The position numbers and the translations under genes were made by a program. From Desulfobacterales bacterium (GTDB lineage: Bacteria; Desulfobacterota; Desulfobacteria; Desulfobacterales; SpSt-501): 56,205 nucleotides of DNA. This document shows positions 6,892-54,325 of this stretch, piece by piece (the first letter of the stretch is position 1; each line of letters begins with the position of its first letter). The stretch is from contig JAUQXK010000076.1 in the NCBI GenBank assembly GCA_030834695.1, positions 1 through 56,205 on the forward strand, in the 5' to 3' direction. The notes below the pieces were generated by a model. It had not been told where the DNA came from and did no database searches. It saw only the letters and a list, made by a program, of their open reading frames with translations.

Positions 6892-7973
6892 TGCGCAAAA
6901 CCGTGATCCCCTTCGGTCCCCAGCACCCCGTGCTGCCCGAACCCATCCATCTGAAGCTGACGGTGGAGGATGAACGCATCATCGAAGCCATTCCGAATCT
7001 GGGCTACGTGCACCGGGGCCTCGAGCGGCTGGCCGATATCCGCGACTTCCACCAGATGATCCAGGTCGTCGAGCGGGTCTGCGGCATCTGTTCGGTCATC
7101 CACGCCCTGTGTTACTGCCAGGGGATCGAGGAGATCATGGGCGTCGAGGTGCCGCCCCGGGCCCGGTATCTGCGGGTGATGTGGTCCGAGCTGCACCGGA
7201 TTCAGAGCCACCTGCTGTGGCTGGGGCTGTTCGCCGACAGTTTCGGCTTCGAGAGCCTGTTCATGCAGTTCTGGCGCGTACGCGAAAAAATCATGGACAT
7301 CAGCGAAGCGACCACCGGCAACCGGGTGATCGTGTCGGTTAACGTGATCGGCGGCGTGCGCCGCAACCCGGACCCCGAACAGATCCGCTGGGTGCTGGCG
7401 CAGATCGATTGGGTCGAGGCGGAGCTGCAGCGCCTGGAAGACACGATGCTGGAAGACTACACGGTCAAGAAGCGCACCGTGGGCAAGGGGGTCCTCACGC
7501 GGCAGCAGGCCTATGAGCTCGGGGCCGTGGGGCCGGTGCTGCGCGGCAGCGGGGTGGCCCAGGACGCGCGCCAGACGGGCTACGCCGCCTACGGCGAGCT
7601 GCACTTCGAACCGGTCGTTGAAACCGACGGGGACTGCTATGCGCGCAATAAGGTCCGGTTCCGGGAAACCCTGGCGAGCATCGACCTGATCCGTCGGGCC
7701 ATCCACCGCCTGCCGGATGGCGAGGTGCGCACCAAGATCAAGGGCATCAAGCCTCCCCAGGGGGAAACCGTCAACCGCGTGGAGCAGCCGCGGGGCGAAC
7801 TGCTTTACTACCTCAAAGGGTCCGGTCAGAAGACGCTCGACCGCGTGCGCATCCGCACCCCCACCTTCGCCAACATTCCGCCGCTGCTGGTGATGCTGCC
7901 CGGCCATTTCCTGTCCGATGTGCCGGTGGTGACGCTGTCCATCGACCCGTGCATCAGCTGCACAGAACGATGA
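6891..7973 (+). CDS. echE: Ech-type [NiFe] hydrogenase large subunit E
   Basis: This is the catalytic subunit, 360 residues. Both nickel-binding CxxC motifs are present: RVCGICSVIH (C64, C67) and DPCISCTER (C354, C357). This separates it from complex I NuoD, which has lost them, and supports real H2 evolution or oxidation coupled to ferredoxin. The protein ends directly after the second motif. It therefore has no C-terminal extension for a maturation endopeptidase, as reported for some Ech and CooH enzymes. The stop codon lies within the left end of a palindromic element that separates it from echF. Confidence 0.95.
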   Translation: MRKTVIPFGPQHPVLPEPIHLKLTVEDERIIEAIPNLGYVHRGLERLADIRDFHQMIQVVERVCGICSVIHALCYCQGIEEIMGVEVPPRARYLRVMWSELHRIQSHLLWLGLFADSFGFESLFMQFWRVREKIMDISEATTGNRVIVSVNVIGGVRRNPDPEQIRWVLAQIDWVEAELQRLEDTMLEDYTVKKRTVGKGVLTRQQAYELGAVGPVLRGSGVAQDARQTGYAAYGELHFEPVVETDGDCYARNKVRFRETLASIDLIRRAIHRLPDGEVRTKIKGIKPPQGETVNRVEQPRGELLYYLKGSGQKTLDRVRIRTPTFANIPPLLVMLPGHFLSDVPVVTLSIDPCISCTER

Positions 7974-8096
7974 TGACTTCGTCAGAAACCCTATTTCGGC
8001 GTTGCGTTCGCTCCGCGCTCCCTGCGGCGTACTGGGAGTACGCCTCGCTCGGCGGAAGCTCACGCGGCTTGAACTTGGGCTTCCGGCGAAGTCATC
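7972..8096. repeat. 125-bp MITE/REP-like palindromic element between echE and echF
   Basis: The element is bounded by perfect 10-bp terminal inverted repeats, GATGACTTCG (7972-7981) and CGAAGTCATC (8087-8096), whose similarity extends imperfectly to about 20 bp. At the centre is a perfect 8-bp hairpin, GGCGTACT-GGG-AGTACGCC (8026-8044). It encodes no protein. It has inserted so that its first base is the second base of the echE stop codon. The folded RNA may change processing or stability of the ech message around echF. Confidence 0.75.
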
Positions 8097-8115
8097 CAAC
8101 GGAAGGTTTTCGCCC

Positions 8116-8547
8116 ATGTTCAGGATGACGCCCAACATCGTACGCAATCTGGTGGTCAGGAAGTCCACCCGCATGTATCCGGTCGAGGTGCGCGAGCCCT
8201 TCGCCCAGGTCCGCGGCGAGCTTTTCAACGACATCGAACGCTGCATTTTCTGCGGCACCTGCGAAGTCAAGTGCCCCTCCCAGTGCATCCAGGTGGACAA
8301 AAAGGCCTGCATCTGGACCTGCGATCCCTTCGCCTGCGTCTTTTGCGGGGTCTGCGTGGACACCTGTCCGGCCAAGAGCCTCTACCAAAAAACCAAATAC
8401 CGCAGCCCCACCGGCGAACGCATCATCATCAGCCAGCAGGGTCAGCCCCGGAAAAAGGACAAGGCCAAAGACAGGGCCGGGGAGAGCGGCACGCCGAAAG
8501 GGTCCGGCGAAGAAAAAGCGGACCCCGGTGGCGACCCTGCAACTTGA
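8116..8547 (+). CDS. echF: Ech-type hydrogenase ferredoxin-like subunit F
   Basis: EchF is the polyferredoxin subunit that receives electrons from ferredoxin. Two [4Fe-4S] motifs are visible, CIFCGTCEVKCPSQC and CVFCGVCVDTCPAKS. The lysine-rich tail is unconserved. The ATG at 8116 has GGAAGG seven bases upstream; the longer frame begins inside the palindromic element and is not credible. This completes the six-subunit complex. Translation of echF is not coupled to echE because the repeat element pushes it 142 bp away. Confidence 0.92.
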   Translation: MFRMTPNIVRNLVVRKSTRMYPVEVREPFAQVRGELFNDIERCIFCGTCEVKCPSQCIQVDKKACIWTCDPFACVFCGVCVDTCPAKSLYQKTKYRSPTGERIIISQQGQPRKKDKAKDRAGESGTPKGSGEEKADPGGDPAT

Positions 8548-8709
8548 CGCTTCGAGAAGCGAGCCATTGGCCTGCCGCGCCACGCCCGGTGTAACATCAT
8601 CGGCAGGTTTGCGTTCTCTCGGGGTCGAAAAGGGGGGAGGCTGGGTTTTAGAATCGATTTCCCCGGATGGCATGAATTCGGCGATGGGAGTGCCCGGGAT
8701 CTCCGGGCT

Positions 8710-9555
8710 TCAGCGGTGGAAGCGCATTAAACCGATGCCCACCAACGTGCACGCCGTGGCGAGCACTTTCATGAGATCCAGCCGTTCCTTGAGTACCACC
8801 ACCCCCAGCAGCAGCGCAAAGACGATGCTGGTTTCCCGCAACGCCGTCACCAGCGCTATCGGCGCGACGGTAAAGGCCCAGGTGGCCATCGCGTAAGCCA
8901 GAAACGAAGCTCCGCCGGCACCCAGGGCAAACCGCCAATCCTGGCAAATCACTCGCTTCACAACGCCCGGACGAATCACGCGCATGATGACCGCAAAAAT
9001 GACCGCATTTAGGATCGACAGGCAACCGTAGTAACCGAGGGCGGTGCCGGCCGCGCGCGCCCCCAGACCGTCGACCAGCGAATATCCGGCGATGAACCCT
9101 CCGGTGACGACCGCCAACGCGGCCGCTGGGCCGTTGCGAAGGCCGTCACGCCTGCGCACCATCGCCAGGCTCATGATGCCGGCTGCAATCACGCCCACGG
9201 CCGCGAGTTCGATCCTGGATAGATGCAGCCCCAGCAGAGTTACCGAGACGCCTGCGACCATGAGGGGGGCAACCCCGCGCGCCAGGGGGTATACCTGAGT
9301 CAAATCGCCGATGCGGTAGGACGCCAATAGGAACAATTGATACCCCACGTGCAGAACCGCTCCCGCGAGCAGAAACGGCAGCGCGTCAGGGTCGGGCATC
9401 GGAGCGAGCAGCAGGGCGGCCGCCGCAAAAGGCGAATGCCCGATCACCACCGCACTCATGCTCTGATACTTATCGCCCGTGCGTTTGACCAGAAAATTCC
9501 AGGAGGCATGCAAGAGCGCTGCAAACAGGACAACGATCATAACCGAGAGAGACAT
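8710..9555 (-). CDS. EamA/DMT-family membrane transporter
   Basis: A 281-residue protein with about ten hydrophobic helices arranged as two EamA repeats, the fold of drug/metabolite exporters. Features include an N-terminal helix with LLHASWNFLVKRTG and a C-terminal half ending LVGIGLMRFHR. The substrate cannot be read from sequence. A GCCCGG-AGATC-CCGGGC hairpin follows the stop on the coding strand but has no T-run. It stands alone between the ech and TRAP operons. Confidence 0.85.
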   Translation of the reverse strand: MSLSVMIVVLFAALLHASWNFLVKRTGDKYQSMSAVVIGHSPFAAAALLLAPMPDPDALPFLLAGAVLHVGYQLFLLASYRIGDLTQVYPLARGVAPLMVAGVSVTLLGLHLSRIELAAVGVIAAGIMSLAMVRRRDGLRNGPAAALAVVTGGFIAGYSLVDGLGARAAGTALGYYGCLSILNAVIFAVIMRVIRPGVVKRVICQDWRFALGAGGASFLAYAMATWAFTVAPIALVTALRETSIVFALLLGVVVLKERLDLMKVLATACTLVGIGLMRFHR

Positions 9556-19910: not shown

Positions 19911-20126
19911 GCCTTCTACCTCCGGAATCGAATGGGTGGAGGAAAGACCTTGGTTCGATTCCAAAGGTTTTCCTCATCGATGCCTACGAGGTTAGCTGAA
20001 GGGCTAGGGTCGATAAGGTTACCCCTCGCCGTGTGGCGATTTGCCCCAAAAACGTGGGTCCCCCGCTCCTGATGCTTCTTAGGATTAGGCAACCAAATCC
20101 TATCCCGCTTTCTTTTTCTTTGTCAA
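19911..20126 (-). promoter_or_regulatory. Promoter and structured leader upstream of small ORF and FN3 gene
   Basis: Minus-strand TTGACA (20126-20121), an 18-bp spacer and TAGGAT (20102-20097) form a promoter. A perfect 7-bp palindrome TAGGATT/AATCCTA (20080-20102) covers the -10. The transcribed leader contains TCGCC-GTGT-GGCGA (20026-20039), CCTCAT/ACGAGG (19972-19991) and a perfect 8-bp stem GGAATCGA/TCGATTCC (19924-19962) just upstream of the small-ORF ribosome-binding site. I could not match it to a known riboswitch. Confidence 0.45.
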
Positions 20127-28316: not shown

Positions 28317-28634
28317 TCAGCCGCCGAAGAGCCTTTCCAGGATGCTTTTCTTCCGAGCCTTCGGCGCGGGCATTCCTAAGTGCCGGCAAATGGCGGCTGC
28401 TACGTTTTCTTCTGGAATTCCGGAGCCCTCCACCACAATTTCATCACCCACCATGACGGCCGGGGCCACCGGCAGATCCAACTCGAAGTATTCATCGGTC
28501 TGGTAGTCGGCGATGGGTTTGGATGTCACTTCGATCTCGATCGGGTAGTCTGCGCCCAGCCTGGGCATCATGCGCTTGAAGCCCTTTCACGGCTTGCCGT
28601 TGGGTTCGTTCAGGAAAAACCTCACTTTGAGCAT
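28317..28634 (-). CDS. Thioredoxin-fold redox protein with one in-frame UGA (candidate selenoprotein)
   Basis: From the ATG at 28634 (AAAGGA seven bases upstream) the frame reads MLKVRFFLNEPNGKP, UGA at 28589-28587 (residue 16), then KGFKRMMPRL and on to 105 residues. The UGA sits at the end of the first strand and the start of the first helix, where thioredoxin-fold proteins carry their active cysteine. The cis-proline-like segment LPVAPAVMVGD follows. A stem of seven base pairs (28584-28563) and a second hairpin (28566-28554) follow the UGA. The gene is 14 bp after the rhodanese-DsbD gene and ends in three tandem UGAs. Called from the next ATG (28571), it would lose its active site. Confidence 0.75.
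28554..28584 (-). promoter_or_regulatory. Candidate bacterial SECIS element for UGA at 28589
   Basis: The RNA GGGC-U-UCA-AGCGCA-UGA-U-GCCC (28584-28563) forms seven base pairs with one U-U mismatch. An alternative stem GCCCA-GGC-UGGGC (28566-28554) places its loop about 25 nt after the UGA. Bacterial SECIS elements lie inside the coding sequence just after the UGA with a G in the loop; both forms qualify. Confidence 0.5.
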
Positions 28635-28648
28635 ATGCGGTCCTTTCT

Positions 28649-30394
28649 TCACTCGCAGTTTTTTTGAAGCCGGTTCATGCGGGTGAGCATCTCATCGGCC
28701 GGCAGGAAATCCAACAGGCGGAGGTCCCGGCACTCTTTGCCGTCGGCGTTTAAAAAAACAACCGTCGGGACCCCCTTGACGGCATATTCCTGCAAGAGCC
28801 TATCGTACGTCGGGTTTCCGCCCTGGGTGACGTCGACCTTGATCATCGCAAAGTCGCTTGTCTGTTTGACCACGGCGGGGTCATGAAAGGTGGTCTCGTC
28901 GAGTTCCCGGCAGGGAGCGCACCAGGCGGCATAGAAATCGATGACGACCGGGCGCTTCAGCCGTGCGGCCTCTTTGATCATGTCGTCTGAAAAAGGCGTC
29001 CATGCGACTCCCGGTCCGCGCAGGAGCAGCGAGGCGATGATGAAAACGGCCAGGGCGAAGGAAGCGGCCCCCGCCGCCGCCTTCAGCCAGGGGAATGCTC
29101 GGAAGCTCGCCGCGTTCCGGTCGAGCCAAGCCAAATGCACACCGGCCGCCAGCAGGACCGCGGAAAGAGCAGTGGTCGCCGCCGGTTCCCGCAAAAGGGG
29201 CTTGAGGAAATAGGCGGCCATTCCGACCAGCACCCAGCCCATGAGTTTGCGCACCCAGAGCATCCAGCCGCCCGAGCGCGGGAGGCGCTGGATCTGTCCC
29301 GAAAACAGCGCTAACAGGAAAAGCGGCAGCCCGAGGCCGATGCTCAGGGCGAAGAACACGATGAACCCGATCCAGGGGCTGCCCATGCCGGCCACCCAGG
29401 TGAGAAGCCCCAGGACAAAAGGGCCGATGCAGGGGGCCGCGACGACACCGAGGGTGAGCCCCATAAAGAGGCTTCCGAAATAGCCGCTGTACGATTTGGC
29501 CGCCGCCCGGGTCAGGCCGCTGGGGAGGCGCAGCTCCCATAGACCGAACAGGCTGGCGGCGAAAACGACCAGTACGGCCGCAACCGCAATCAGAACGGCC
29601 GGGTGCTGCAGCACGGCTCCCATGAGGCTTCCGGTCAGCGCGGCGATTACTCCGAGGACCGAGTTGGTGAAGGCCAGGCCCAGGAGATAGCAGAGGCCGT
29701 GGACAAACAGGCGGCTTCTGCCGCAGGCGGAATCGGCGGCCGCCCGGCCCCCGAAATACGAAACGGTGATGGGGATCATCGGGTAGACGCACGGGGTGAG
29801 GTTAAGGGCGATCCCGCCGGCGAAGACCCCCAGAAGGGTCCAGATCATGGCCCATCCGTGCAACGCACCGGGCGGCTGGGTCTCCTGAGCGGCCCCGGCC
29901 AGGCCCGCGGGCCGGCTTTCAATCGGCAGGCCCAGTTTCTGCCATTCGGGAAATCCCAGCGGGTCCCGATAGACGTTTTTATAACCCAGCTGGACGGCCA
30001 CCCGGGCCGCCGAGTCGCTGCGGACTCAGGTCAATCCGGTTCAGTAGAAAACGACCCGCCGGTCTTTGTCCGGGCCGAGCAGTTCTTTCAGCGCGTCCGC
30101 CTTGCGCCAGCGCGACCACGCGGTCGGCTCCATGGGGAAGTTGATCGCGCCGCGCATGTGCCCGGTGCGATACTCCCAGTCCTGGCGGGTGTCCACCAGG
30201 AGAAATTCACTGGGGTTCTTGGAATAGGCTGCGGCGAGTTCCGTCGTGGTGATGGTTCGGTATCCGCCGGTTTTGGCTTCGGCCAGGACATCCTCCCAGG
30301 TCGCTTCCCTGGGCGTGACGGCATCATTGGTGAACCACAGTGCGCCCAATGCAGCCGCAACGGCTGCCAGGGTCATGATGAGCGTACGATTCAT
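28649..30394 (-). CDS. Rhodanese-DsbD-thioredoxin fusion with two in-frame UGAs (candidate selenoprotein)
   Basis: Read through two UGAs, this is one 581-residue protein. It has an N-terminal membrane helix (MNRTLIMTLAAVAAALGALW) and a rhodanese domain (LLVDTRQDWEYRTGHMRGAI). Next comes VVFY-U-TGLT-U-VRSDSAA, with UGAs at 30043-30041 (residue 118) and 30028-30026 (residue 123), and then GYKNVYRDPLGFPEWQ. A DsbD membrane domain follows with both transport cysteines (LTPCVYP and AAPCIGP), then a thioredoxin domain (AAWCAPCRE). Both UGAs fall where rhodanese relatives have cysteine; the first is the catalytic position. No other stop or frameshift interrupts it. Conventional calling would split it into a truncated rhodanese and a DsbD starting at a GTG (30001). 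It likely moves electrons or sulfane sulfur across the membrane. Confidence 0.8.
29993..30011 (-). promoter_or_regulatory. Candidate bacterial SECIS element for rhodanese UGAs
   Basis: The RNA GGCGGCC-CGGGU-GGCCGUC forms a 7-bp stem (one G-U pair) with a 5-nt G-containing loop. The loop begins 22 nt after the second UGA and 37 nt after the first, near the spacing accepted for bacterial SECIS. A 7-bp stem (CUGAGUC/GACUCGG) also includes the second UGA itself. Confidence 0.55.
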
Positions 30395-30420
30395 CGACGC
30401 GTGCTCCATGAAATGGAATT

Positions 30421-30870
30421 TCACAGTTTCTTTTCGTTCTTCAGCTTCGTTATGAGAAAAGTTGCGCCGCGCCGGGAAAGCCCCAGATTCGAGGCCAGGC
30501 TGTCCGCGTTCAGGAGGCCATGGGTTCTGGCCAAAGAGACGACCTCGTTCTCCAGCTCTTCCAGCCAATCCTCGAAGAGAGCCAGGATCTCGGGATCGGT
30601 GATCGCCATCAATTGCTTGGACTGCGCCACCTTGTCCACCAGGCTCTGGCACATCTGCGTCGGGTCGACACCTTCGCCCATGCACTCGGCCAGTCAGAGA
30701 TGAACGAGACTGGACACCTTGTCTTCCTGGGATTCGCCGACGAGTTCCAGGAGAAACCGGCCCCGGGATTCCTCGGACGCCACCGGAAAAACGGTTTTTA
30801 ATGCCTGCCCCACCTCGTCGAGAGCCTCTTCCGGATCCATGCGCTGGACGATCTTGAGAATTTCGCTCAT
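30421..30870 (-). CDS. Small protein of unknown family with one in-frame UGA (candidate selenoprotein)
   Basis: From the ATG at 30870 the frame reads MSEILKIVQRMDPEEALDEV and reaches SSLVHL, then UGA at 30696-30694 (residue 59), then LAECMGEGVDPTQMC and on to 149 residues. Two ordinary cysteines follow within 13 residues, so the UGA sits in a cysteine-rich, probably redox or metal-binding, segment. The C-terminal half is helical and charged (LFEDWLEELENEVVSLAR) and ends in a winged-helix-like stretch. Calling only from 30681 would discard 63 residues. It lies 25 bp after the ArsR stop and 26 bp before the rhodanese-DsbD start. Confidence 0.7.
30662..30679 (-). promoter_or_regulatory. Candidate bacterial SECIS element for UGA at 30696
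   Basis: The RNA GGGCGA-AGGUG-UCG-A-CCC forms six base pairs with one bulged A and a G-containing 5-nt loop that begins 21 nt after the UGA. Stem, loop and distance are close to those of the hairpin in the downstream rhodanese gene. Confidence 0.5.
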
Positions 30871-30895
30871 CGTGCGCCTGCCGCCCTTTCAACCG

Positions 30896-31201
30896 TTAAA
30901 TGGTATTCCGTGCCGCCAGGAGATCGGCAGCCAACGCGTCCAAAAGCCGCACCACATCCAGGGTCCGCGGATCGGCGAGCGTGTAATAAATGAAGGGTCC
31001 GCTGCGTTCGATCGTCACCAGAAGGCACCGTTTGAGTTCCTTGAGATGATGGGAAACCAGCGGCTGCGACAGGCCGACCTCTTCTACGATGCCGGTGACC
31101 GACTTCTTTTGGCCGATCAGGCAGAGCAGAATCCGGAGGCGGTTTTCATCGGCCAGGCCCTTGGCCAGCGTCGAGATCGAACGATAGTCGGTTGCAACCA
31201 T
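30896..31201 (-). CDS. ArsR-family winged-helix repressor
   Basis: A 101-residue ArsR/SmtB-type regulator: LADENRLRILLCLIG, a recognition helix in VGLSQPLVSHHLKELKR, and the wing IERSGPFIYYTLAD. The usual metal-binding ELCVCDL motif is absent. Two cysteines (LLCLIG and KRCLL) could act as a thiol or persulfide switch, as in redox-sensing ArsR relatives. The ATG at 31201 has GGAGG upstream, better than a frame from 31294. It is the first gene of the operon with the three UGA-containing genes, so it probably represses them and itself. Confidence 0.9.
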   Translation of the reverse strand: MVATDYRSISTLAKGLADENRLRILLCLIGQKKSVTGIVEEVGLSQPLVSHHLKELKRCLLVTIERSGPFIYYTLADPRTLDVVRLLDALAADLLAARNTI

Positions 31202-31377
31202 CTTGGATCGCCTCCCCCGTGGCGTAAATGGGTGGATGCGATCTTCAGGCTTTTCGGGCCGTGGGGAGGTCTTTTTCTGAATCGCCCTTCGCATAAAACC
31301 ACCCTTCTCCCGGCGGGAGGCCTTCAGTCGATTGGAGTGATGAATTCAACCCGAACAAGGCAGCGAAATAAGATATA

Positions 31378-31411
31378 AACATAAATTAATATGTTGCCGC
31401 TTCCGTGTCAA
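31378..31411 (-). promoter_or_regulatory. Promoter and palindromic operator of arsR-selenoprotein operon
   Basis: Minus-strand TTGACA (31411-31406) is followed, after 17 bp, by TAATTT as a weak -10. An 18-bp palindrome AACATA-AATTAA-TATGTT (31378-31395) overlaps the -10 region. ArsR repressors bind AT-rich palindromes of this sort at their own promoters. The rest of 31202-31605 holds no gene; a short ACCCC/GGGGT hairpin and possible plus-strand promoter bases (TTGACA near 31491) are all I see. Confidence 0.55.
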
Positions 31412-52944: not shown

Positions 52945-53961
52945 TCAATGGCTGTAAAAAGGTTGACCGAACAGAAATTGCAGACTGTGCCCCCATGCGC
53001 TCAAGCATGTCTTGCCGCCATATCGCGCAATATGTTCTCGATTGTGCTGCAAAAGGGATACCTGTCGACTGGATACACGGCTTGGCAGGCGGACCTCCAC
53101 GAAAATGGAATGTGTGCGCGAGCCCTGGCTTGGAACGGTAGGGATCGTCGACGTGAGAATGTTCGCAGATCCACTCTTTTCGACCCCTCGAGCATTCCGT
53201 GCTGTCCATGCTCCCTGTATAAGCGAGACGCACCCTGAAATGATGTCCTCCGTAAGGGAAGCCTCAATATCCATTTCTCCCTGGCTGCCCTGCACGCGCA
53301 CTATGTCCCCGTCTTGTATGCCCCGTCTGCGCCCGTCCAGCACGTTCATGACCAGAACCTGTTTGGCCAATTTGGCTGCCCACGGCAGATTGAAATTCTG
53401 CGAGTTGATCCTGAACTTTGAATGCGGGGTAGTCATTCGGAGCGGGTACACTGTGTCAGGCTGAGCTATTCGGCATTGCGGTATGGCGGATGCCTGCGTT
53501 TCAGCCAAGGCCGCGCATCGGATCTCAATCTTTCCGGTGGGCGTGGATAGGGGGGGGCAGGGGATTCGATAAAACGGCTCAGTCCAATGCGCCGCTGCTC
53601 CTTTCCTTCCAGGATACCGGTCTCCTTCAAGCGTTCAATGTCCTTAATCCCGGGCCGCGCCATCAAGCATGCGAGCCATTGGGCAGCGGTACGTCCATCT
53701 GAGTAGTTCGCCCCGAAGCCAAGTCGATCGGATAGATTACAGAAGATGTCGTAGTCGTTGCGGCAGGAGGGAAGCGGTTTGATCGCCTGGTTTGAATAGA
53801 AGAGGTAATGGTCGGCCGGGAAGATCACGTCATCTCGTTCGACAAGAACCGACTGATCGCCCTGATTTGGCATGCATTCAAAAAAATGGTGTACAAGGTC
53901 TACGCCGAGTACATCGAGGATCTCGAAACGGACGCGGGATTGATCTTGGACTATGTTGGAT
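52945..53961 (-). pseudogene. Frameshifted C-terminal remnant of a molybdopterin oxidoreductase
   Basis: Two overlapping frames carry consecutive parts of a DMSO-reductase-family enzyme. The upstream frame (from about 53961) includes DDVIFPADHYLFYSNQAIKP and DYDIFCNLSDRLGF. The downstream frame includes YPLRMTTPHSKFRINSQNF, DGDIVRVQGSQGEMDI and SGSANILTSTIP, the molybdopterin-dinucleotide-binding C-terminus. The shift lies near 53480-53560. The N-terminal two thirds are missing, and the open frame begins right at the end of ssrA, which marks a recombination junction. Confidence 0.75.
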
Positions 53962-53963
53962 TA

Positions 53964-53981
53964 AAATTTGGTGGAGGCGGC
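53964..53981 (+). repeat. Candidate right attachment site (direct repeat copy 2) at ssrA 3' end
   Basis: AAATTTGGTGGAGGCGGC covers the final 13 bases of ssrA (including CCA) and the five bases beyond. It matches the copy at 32515 in 17 of 18 positions. Confidence 0.5.
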
Positions 53982-54325
53982 GGGAGTCGAACCCGCGTCC
54001 GAAAACATTCAACCCAAGCGTCTACATGCTTTTCCCGGATTTTGAGTCTCGCCTCATGCGACTCCTCCAGGCGGGATGCGCAATCGGCCAGCCCACTAAA
54101 TTTCGCCGATCCGGCCGCAGGCGCACCGGACCAACTATCCCGCTAGTCGACGCCCTTTACCGGGTCTGCAGGAGGAGACCAGGCAGGACGGTAGCTGCGC
54201 TAGGCAGCTACGGCGTAGGCATAATCGTCTGCGATTATGTTTATCCCCATCAGGATTTACGAGCCGACAGGACGCTCGGCATGCAGCTTGAATATCATTG
54301 TCCCCGTCGAAACCGTTTCGCCCCC
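53969..54325 (-). ncRNA. ssrA: Transfer-messenger RNA
   Basis: tmRNA rescues stalled ribosomes by acting as tRNA-Ala and then as a short mRNA. The 5' end GGGGGCGAAACGGTTTCGAC pairs with the 3' end CGCCTCC before ACCA (seven pairs). The T-arm GGGTTCGACTCCC is intact. The tag frame resumes at GCA after ATAATC and encodes ADDYAYAVAA followed by TAG, aligning with the E. coli resume site. The length of 357 nt and encoded CCA are typical. A consensus promoter lies about 100 bp upstream. Confidence 0.97.

Follow-up and report, generated by a model that had tools for sequence, protein, structure and literature searches.

Thiol-switch regulators of the ArsR family, of the BigR/SqrR type, carry a conserved cysteine pair in the regulator, and BigR operons encode rhodanese and DsbD-type partners. 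The Tso system ('three selenoprotein operon') is credited in a 2026 review (PMC13188914) to Haft and Tolstoy 2025 (mSystems 10:e0141724); the review lists TsoA (LULAxC), TsoB (UxxxxU), TsoC (GxxU), TsoX and TsoY, and its passages on Tso assign the operon no function. Another multi-selenoprotein operon in the same source is the selenocysteine-assisted organometallic (SAO) operon. Here we describe an operon in a 56,205-nucleotide stretch of DNA from a Desulfobacterales bacterium (GenBank assembly GCA_030834695.1, contig JAUQXK010000076.1, positions 1 to 56,205, forward strand), the whole of which we call the window. The operon is very probably tsoR-tsoA-tsoB-tsoC, with four internal UGA codons that are predicted from the sequence to be decoded as selenocysteine (Sec) by SelB together with a hairpin downstream of each.

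Identification of the Tso operon

The four genes lie on the minus strand, in the order tsoR, tsoA, tsoB and tsoC:

30896..31201, minus: tsoR, ArsR/SmtB-type regulator (NF045707, 145.4 bits against a cut-off of 115; Pfam HTH_5)
30421..30870, minus: tsoA, LULAXC-motif selenoprotein, 149 amino acids (NF045695, 224.9 bits against 170)
28649..30394, minus: tsoB, rhodanese/DsbD membrane domain/thioredoxin fusion, 581 amino acids, double selenoprotein (NF045694, 980.5 bits against 805)
28317..28634, minus: tsoC, NEPxGxxU-motif selenoprotein with a thioredoxin-like fold, 105 amino acids (NF045708, 143.8 bits against 45)

The proteins were assigned by hmmscan against NCBIfam with UGA read as a residue; all four exceed the curated cut-offs of the Tso models, and the read-through models span nearly the full length. 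The intergenic gaps are 25 bp (tsoR-tsoA), 26 bp (tsoA-tsoB) and 14 bp (tsoB-tsoC), and an alternative tsoB ATG five codons upstream would shorten the second to 11 bp. A first-pass annotation made from the DNA alone had seen an arsR gene followed by three genes 14-26 bp apart, with four in-frame UGAs and no in-frame UAA, UAG or frameshift, and this description is confirmed on the minus strand. Its further statement that the gene set was undescribed as a unit was wrong: four dedicated NCBIfam models exist and Tso appears in PMC13188914, so the gene set has already been described, and neither the operon nor any of its four families is new.

The locus agrees with the Tso system in having all four genes, the UGA motifs as given in the review's list and models above cut-off, and its gene order matches that of most fetched relatives holding all four genes. 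It differs in that TsoX and TsoY of the same list were undetected in its own genome and that no DedA/VTT gene stands beside this copy. It differs from the SAO operon in that no Sao-named model is among the matches listed for the four proteins (for TsoB, the best 25 of 28). Four details described below are absent from the passages on Tso in PMC13188914: the operator, the covariation in the hairpins, the counts of TsoR-TsoA pairing and the methionine-rich relatives of TsoA.

Internal UGA codons and their probable decoding as selenocysteine

The four internal UGA codons, placed by translation and homologue conservation, are as follows:

30694..30696, minus: UGA, Sec59 of TsoA
30041..30043, minus: UGA, Sec118 of TsoB, at the rhodanese active-site position
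30026..30028, minus: UGA, Sec123 of TsoB
28587..28589, minus: UGA, Sec16 of TsoC

The terminal stops of tsoA, tsoB and tsoC are UGA as well, so that the codon by itself cannot tell Sec from stop; the two are separated by read-through models of nearly full length, by retention of UGA in the homologues and by intact hairpins. Among distinct homologues aligned by tblastn (E <= 1e-20, with the loci L066-L071, which contain UGA-free relatives, left out), the UGA column is kept in 99/99 rows for TsoA, 58/58 at each TsoB site and 73/73 for TsoC, rows being counted as independent though many are related. Every stop counted is TGA, and the reading frame is conserved before and after each UGA; in the window, intact frames around the codons had been noted in the first-pass annotation.

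Searches of 395 genomes of the phylum, in which 3 candidates per genome were scored for TsoB, up to 9 for TsoA and up to 12 for TsoR, gave the following counts. One TGA is present in 43 of the 52 TsoA matches; of the nine without it, eight begin no earlier than profile position 58 and the ninth begins at 44, U59 corresponding to about position 56. One TGA is likewise found in 41 of the 42 TsoC matches, the remaining match lying below cut-off, and two TGAs in 22 of the 23 TsoB matches over cut-off. The sole UGA-free TsoB over cut-off, an open frame on contig 128 of the genome G278, reads CAGPDC where the window has UTGLTU, and is a direct Cys/Sec comparison at both TsoB positions. This full-length paralogue lies at about 7493-9262 of its locus, near a methyltransferase gene (read by eye); the Sec form is present in G278 as well. 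An additional TsoB-like match that reads C/C, on the other strand of the locus L107, is a rhodanese of 28% identity.

The decoding machinery is present in the genome of the window (5.65 Mb in 149 contigs): selA (615.3 bits), selB (375.1 bits), tRNA-Sec (selC; 75.2 bits, anticodon tca) and two selD genes, each with one TGA inside. The absence of selB or selC, which the first-pass annotation had named as fatal to its selenoprotein proposal, is thereby excluded, and UGA conservation, hairpins and sel genes together bear out that proposal for three genes. The roles it gave to the individual residues also stand. U118 is at the active-site position of the rhodanese; U123, taken for a second rhodanese cysteine, closes a CxxxxC-type loop whose Cys form is CAGPDC; U16, assigned to a thioredoxin-fold active position, lies where helix 1 begins in a model with a thioredoxin-like fold; and U59, placed in a cysteine-rich segment, is near the conserved C63 and C74. 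Its proposed check for Cys or Sec in homologues gave UGA in all aligned TsoA, TsoB and TsoC rows and Cys in the one TsoB mentioned above.

On a 6.3-kb contig of the same genome (G000:C11:4805-6066), a further tRNA-Sec with anticodon tca (57.6 bits) is followed directly by another SelB-like gene, which scores 281 bits over profile positions 3-360; the neighbours look by eye like lactate-utilisation genes. The pair may belong to an additional Sec system, or the contig may be a contaminant (the stated contamination is 4.96%).

Hairpins downstream of the UGA codons

A structure of the SECIS (selenocysteine insertion sequence) type follows each UGA at 18-24 nt, as the first-pass annotation had noted, presumably one hairpin per UGA:

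30661..30680, minus: tsoA hairpin, 7-pair stem, loop AGGUG, 20 nt after UGA59 (98.0% of pair cells intact, 91 distinct sites)
30012..30027, minus: first tsoB hairpin, GAGUC/GACUC, loop 18 nt after UGA118 (96.9% of cells paired, 58 sites)
29994..30010, minus: second tsoB hairpin, loop CGGGU, 21 nt after UGA123 (98.6% of cells paired, 58 sites)
28553..28567, minus: tsoC hairpin, GCCC/GGGC core, loop 24 nt after UGA16 (95.0% of cells paired, 72 sites)

The two tsoB hairpins stand in tandem, and the first takes in two bases of UGA123. The bacterial SECIS model quoted in PMC13188914 has 3-9 nt in the loop, with G at loop position 1 or 2, 4-16 bp in the stem, a distance of 16-37 nt from the UGA and an energy of at most -7.5 kcal/mol. 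In the order tsoA, tsoB first, tsoB second and tsoC, the loops are 5, 6, 5 and 5 nt, the stems 7, 5, 6 and 5 pairs and the spacings 20, 18, 21 and 24 nt, with G second in every loop, so that all four agree with the loop, stem, G and spacing rules quoted there. The bare cores have energies of -7.1, -4.8, -9.5 and -7.7 kcal/mol, and longer windows fold at -13.8 to -20.8 kcal/mol, other pairings included.

Compensatory changes are seen in three of the four hairpins. Pair 20-33 of the tsoA hairpin is GC in 67, AU in 21, GU in 2 and unpaired in 1 of the 91 sites; pair 36-48 of the second tsoB hairpin is GC 49, AU 4, CG 3 and UA 1; and pair 24-36 of the tsoC hairpin is GC 60, GU 4, CG 4 and UA 1. 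These named structures replaced a loose hairpin rule and were counted first on alignments of 29 of the 58 TsoB, 30 of the 91 TsoA and 28 of the 72 TsoC distinct sites, each with the window row added (31 sites had been listed for TsoA and 36 for TsoC, of which 1 and 8 were dropped), and then on all distinct sites. In the 31-row alignment, 98.6% of the tsoA cells are paired. Sliding one partner by 1-3 columns reduced pairing to 13.8-61.4%, except for the second tsoB hairpin at -3, which gave 78.7%.

Architecture of TsoB, TsoC and TsoA

TsoB comprises the Pfam domains Rhodanese (residues 51-153), DsbD_TM (184-400) and Thioredoxin_7 (464-550). Its potential relay cysteines are conserved in the homologues: C202 in 57/57, C322 in 57/58, and C492 and C495 in 54/54 each. 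Residues 178-577 match the disulfide reductase DsbD/PRK00293 at 250.6 bits, under the cut-off of 330, and TsoB differs from it in that its N-terminal domain is a seleno-rhodanese. The combination of rhodanese, DsbD membrane domain and thioredoxin lends architectural support to the relay across the membrane suggested in the first-pass annotation. The TsoC structure model has a pLDDT of 90.9, and its best thioredoxin match in the PDB by Foldseek has an E value of 2.0e-4; one L051 copy and one L076 copy were left out of the TsoC alignment.

TsoA is modelled as all-helical (pLDDT 82.3, pTM 0.42). Many partial Foldseek matches of about 45 residues are, by title, winged-helix proteins, so that its C-terminal segment is possibly HTH-like, which we treat as a lead only. 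In the homologues U59 is conserved in 99/99, C63 in 99/99 and C74 in 98/99; the TsoA alignment omits L066 and L068. Relatives of the C-terminal part of TsoA that are UGA-free likewise adjoin TsoR-like genes. They lack the LULAxC segment, and several have a methionine-rich N-terminal stretch instead, clear in L067, L069 and L070 and less so in L066 and L071. By eye, a permease gene is found near the copy of L067 and a heavy-metal P-type ATPase gene near that of L070.

TsoR and its pairing with TsoA

The first-pass annotation placed the operon under an ArsR thiol switch. Within the aligned part, TsoR has no cysteine in 43/105 loci, one in 45/105 and two or more in 17/105, and the commonest cysteine column is Cys in 44/105. 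The conserved regulator cysteine pair of the BigR/SqrR type is thus not found in TsoR, and the lack of a conserved cysteine argues against a thiol switch of that kind. TsoR resembles the BigR-type regulators with rhodanese partners in its ArsR fold and in its sulfur-transfer and membrane redox partners; it differs in scoring 38.2 bits against a BigR cut-off of 155 and in its cysteines. Since U59, C63 and C74 are conserved in TsoA and TsoR is found beside TsoA, Sec/thiol sensing, if any, is more likely to reside in TsoA than in TsoR.

The pairing of the two proteins was counted at E <= 1e-20. A TsoA match lies within 1.6 kb of 46 of the 47 TsoR matches, the exception (G134) having an internal TAA. 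Conversely, 6 of the 52 TsoA matches have no TsoR at this threshold, and four of these (L065, L066, L068 and L070) adjoin a weaker TsoR-like match. In a set of 108 non-redundant loci, from which duplicates and loci with a TsoA E value above 1e-10 (including L067 and L070) had been removed, TsoR is present in 105. The gene content is R-A-B-C in 31, the same with a second tsoC in 20, R-A alone in 26, R-A-C in 10, R-A-C-C in 1 and R-A-B in 3, while 17 are cut by contig ends; among the 26 R-A loci are divergent relatives and relatives without UGA, where a tsoB or tsoC gene may be overlooked.

Two of the loci, L083 and L104, are contigs of one metagenome-assembled genome (JACRCN01). L104 has tsoR, tsoA, tsoB and tsoC; in L083, a tsoA 80% identical to that of the window is accompanied by a partial tsoC and by a tsoR match that contains two stops. 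The carriers also include cultured strains, for example Desulfoprunum benzoelyticum DSM 28570 (L089) and Desulfacinum infernum DSM 9756 (L156).

A putative TsoR operator

Upstream of tsoR is a palindrome that is the only site in the window with two or fewer mismatches to its motif:

31373..31392: putative TsoR operator, 20-bp palindrome ATATAAA-N6-TTTATAT, 1 mismatch in 14

Within 250 nt upstream of tsoR, the palindrome with at most two mismatches in 14 is present in 55/105 loci, one of which (L067) is a UGA-free relative, compared with 0.19% for shuffled sequences and 0.92% for random pieces. An initial operator guess, CATA-N4..8-TATG, occurred in 12/104 upstream regions (2.8% of shuffles) and was dropped for the longer palindrome. 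Promoter- and terminator-like sites were near chance level.

A scan of 15 chosen tso genomes for the palindrome with at most one mismatch gave hits in 13, with 27 sites, 10 of them at a tso locus. The backward control pattern gave 15 sites in 9 genomes, which makes single distant sites weak evidence that may reflect chance. We nevertheless count a site in G301, because it is a perfect copy and precedes tsoY: it lies about 0.65 kb upstream of this gene (341.4 bits against a cut-off of 250), on a contig other than that of the tso operon of the genome. A UGA-containing 105-residue frame between the site and tsoY (L172:870-1187) was considered as TsoX and rejected, having no NCBIfam match; against DsrE it gave an E value of 0.11, below cut-off. 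A TsoY protein matches SLAC1 (35.0 bits against 27.9).

Genomic neighbours

Downstream neighbours of tso operons were tallied for 93 of 112 neighbour proteins, as raw counts without a random-gene background. A DedA/VTT membrane gene accounts for 24/93, ArsM-type (arsenite methyltransferase) matches at E <= 1e-10 for 6/93, pyridine nucleotide-disulfide oxidoreductases for 6/93 and fatty-acid hydroxylases for 7/93. Within 500 nt and on the same strand, DedA/VTT is found in 32 of 126 sources searched, among which at least five pairs are the same contig.

Elsewhere in the window, on the minus strand, are a c-di-AMP riboswitch (19966-20101; RF00379, 89.1 bits), a tmRNA gene (53969-54325; RF00023, 201 bits) and a short frame at 52945-53508 that by eye resembles a C-terminal piece of a molybdopterin oxidoreductase and is possibly a gene remnant.

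Proposed mechanism and alternatives

Taken as a whole, a Tso operon with Sec decoding is, in our judgement, the best explanation of the locus, and we hold this with high confidence. The mechanism is put forward tentatively, at rather less than an even chance: a sulfur or metalloid redox relay under a TsoR-TsoA sensor pair, in which substrate, electron direction, compartments and the role of TsoA are inferred. Cytosolic reducing power would pass to the DsbD-type membrane pair C202/C322 of TsoB, then to the CAPC thioredoxin domain and on to the rhodanese, so that electrons would cross the membrane to a periplasmic seleno-rhodanese domain with the active loop UxxxxU. At this domain sulfane sulfur, or else a reactive chalcogen or metalloid thiolate, would be either reduced or transferred. 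TsoC, which we assume to be cytosolic, may be a small thioredoxin-like partner in the same chemistry. TsoR would repress the operon from the 20-bp palindrome, and TsoA would relieve repression as its sensing partner, via U59, C63 and C74 and possibly the HTH-like C-terminal segment.

A number of points weigh against this explanation. The support for Sec decoding is computational, and further UGA-free TsoB proteins may have escaped because only 3 candidates per genome were scored. The loose hairpin rule also let through 67-69% of the controls taken from the same genes (204/296, 149/224 and 117/172), and the named structures that replaced it derive from the consensus of the same sequences and are biased in their favour. 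The energy limit of -7.5 kcal/mol is reached by two of the four bare cores; the tsoA core falls short, as does that of the first tsoB hairpin, which is the weakest of the four and has no compensatory change. The 29-row tsoC set has 1 pair in which both sides changed, and slid controls gave up to 2; many hairpin pairs are invariant, which is equally expected from protein constraint. TsoX and TsoY had no match in the genome of the window, in searches that had no match in any control genome either, and no DedA/VTT gene was found in the window. For TsoA, Foldseek gave no PDB match at E <= 0.001 (best 0.17, with a model pTM of 0.42), and C74 is replaced by Ser in two divergent UGA-bearing homologues (L062 and L065). 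In about half of the tsoR loci the palindrome is missing from the 250 nt upstream, and the choice of motif was made after inspecting the same regions. Finally, tsoB and tsoC were undetected beside tsoR-tsoA in the 26 of 108 loci noted above.

Among the alternatives, the one that survives best is that Tso is a specific response to toxic metalloids (As, Hg, Se, Te) and not a system of sulfur trafficking, a serious contender that we nonetheless think falls well short of probable. It draws on the ArsM-type and DedA/VTT neighbours, and on the P-type ATPase and permease near UGA-free TsoA relatives. Rhodanese domains usually handle sulfane sulfur, though, and the families of the 93 downstream proteins are mostly non-metal among the matches listed; inspection by eye revealed no arsenic or mercury gene adjoining the operon of the window. 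COG0398, to which we assume the tso-linked VTT genes belong, is tied to aerobic metabolism in a published passage.

A second alternative makes TsoR itself the sensor, either of persulfides in the manner of BigR/SqrR or of metals as a classical ArsR protein, with TsoA as an enzyme. TsoR does match a metalloregulator subfamily (74.5 bits against 55) and, weakly, the BigR model, and the rhodanese and DsbD-type partners are reminiscent of BigR operons. We regard this as unlikely, though far from negligible: TsoR has no conserved cysteine, and TsoA adjoins it even in the 26 loci where tsoB and tsoC were undetected.

Decay or sequencing error in a disintegrating ArsR operon is suggested at first sight by four stops across three adjacent genes and by degraded relatives (the G134 tsoR with its internal TAA, and the L083 tsoR match with two stops beside tsoA), but it is virtually dismissed by the recurrence of TGA at these codons in dozens of genomes, with frames conserved on either side. 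Genome-wide reassignment of UGA to an ordinary amino acid would account for read-through in three genes, but is extremely improbable when the same genes terminate in UGA and selA, selB, selC and selD are present.

Implications for TsoA and TsoR

TsoR and TsoA may together make up a genetic switch of two proteins that senses through selenocysteine, an idea we offer as speculative and less likely than not. TsoR, which has no conserved cysteine ligands, would read the operator ATATAAAYRNNYRTTTATAT, and TsoA would detect a chalcogen or a soft metal. To our knowledge, no case of selenocysteine used for gene regulation has been reported; a TsoA sensor, if true, would be one. The operator, the tight TsoR-TsoA pairing and the G301 tsoY site provide direct handles on what the operon senses and controls.

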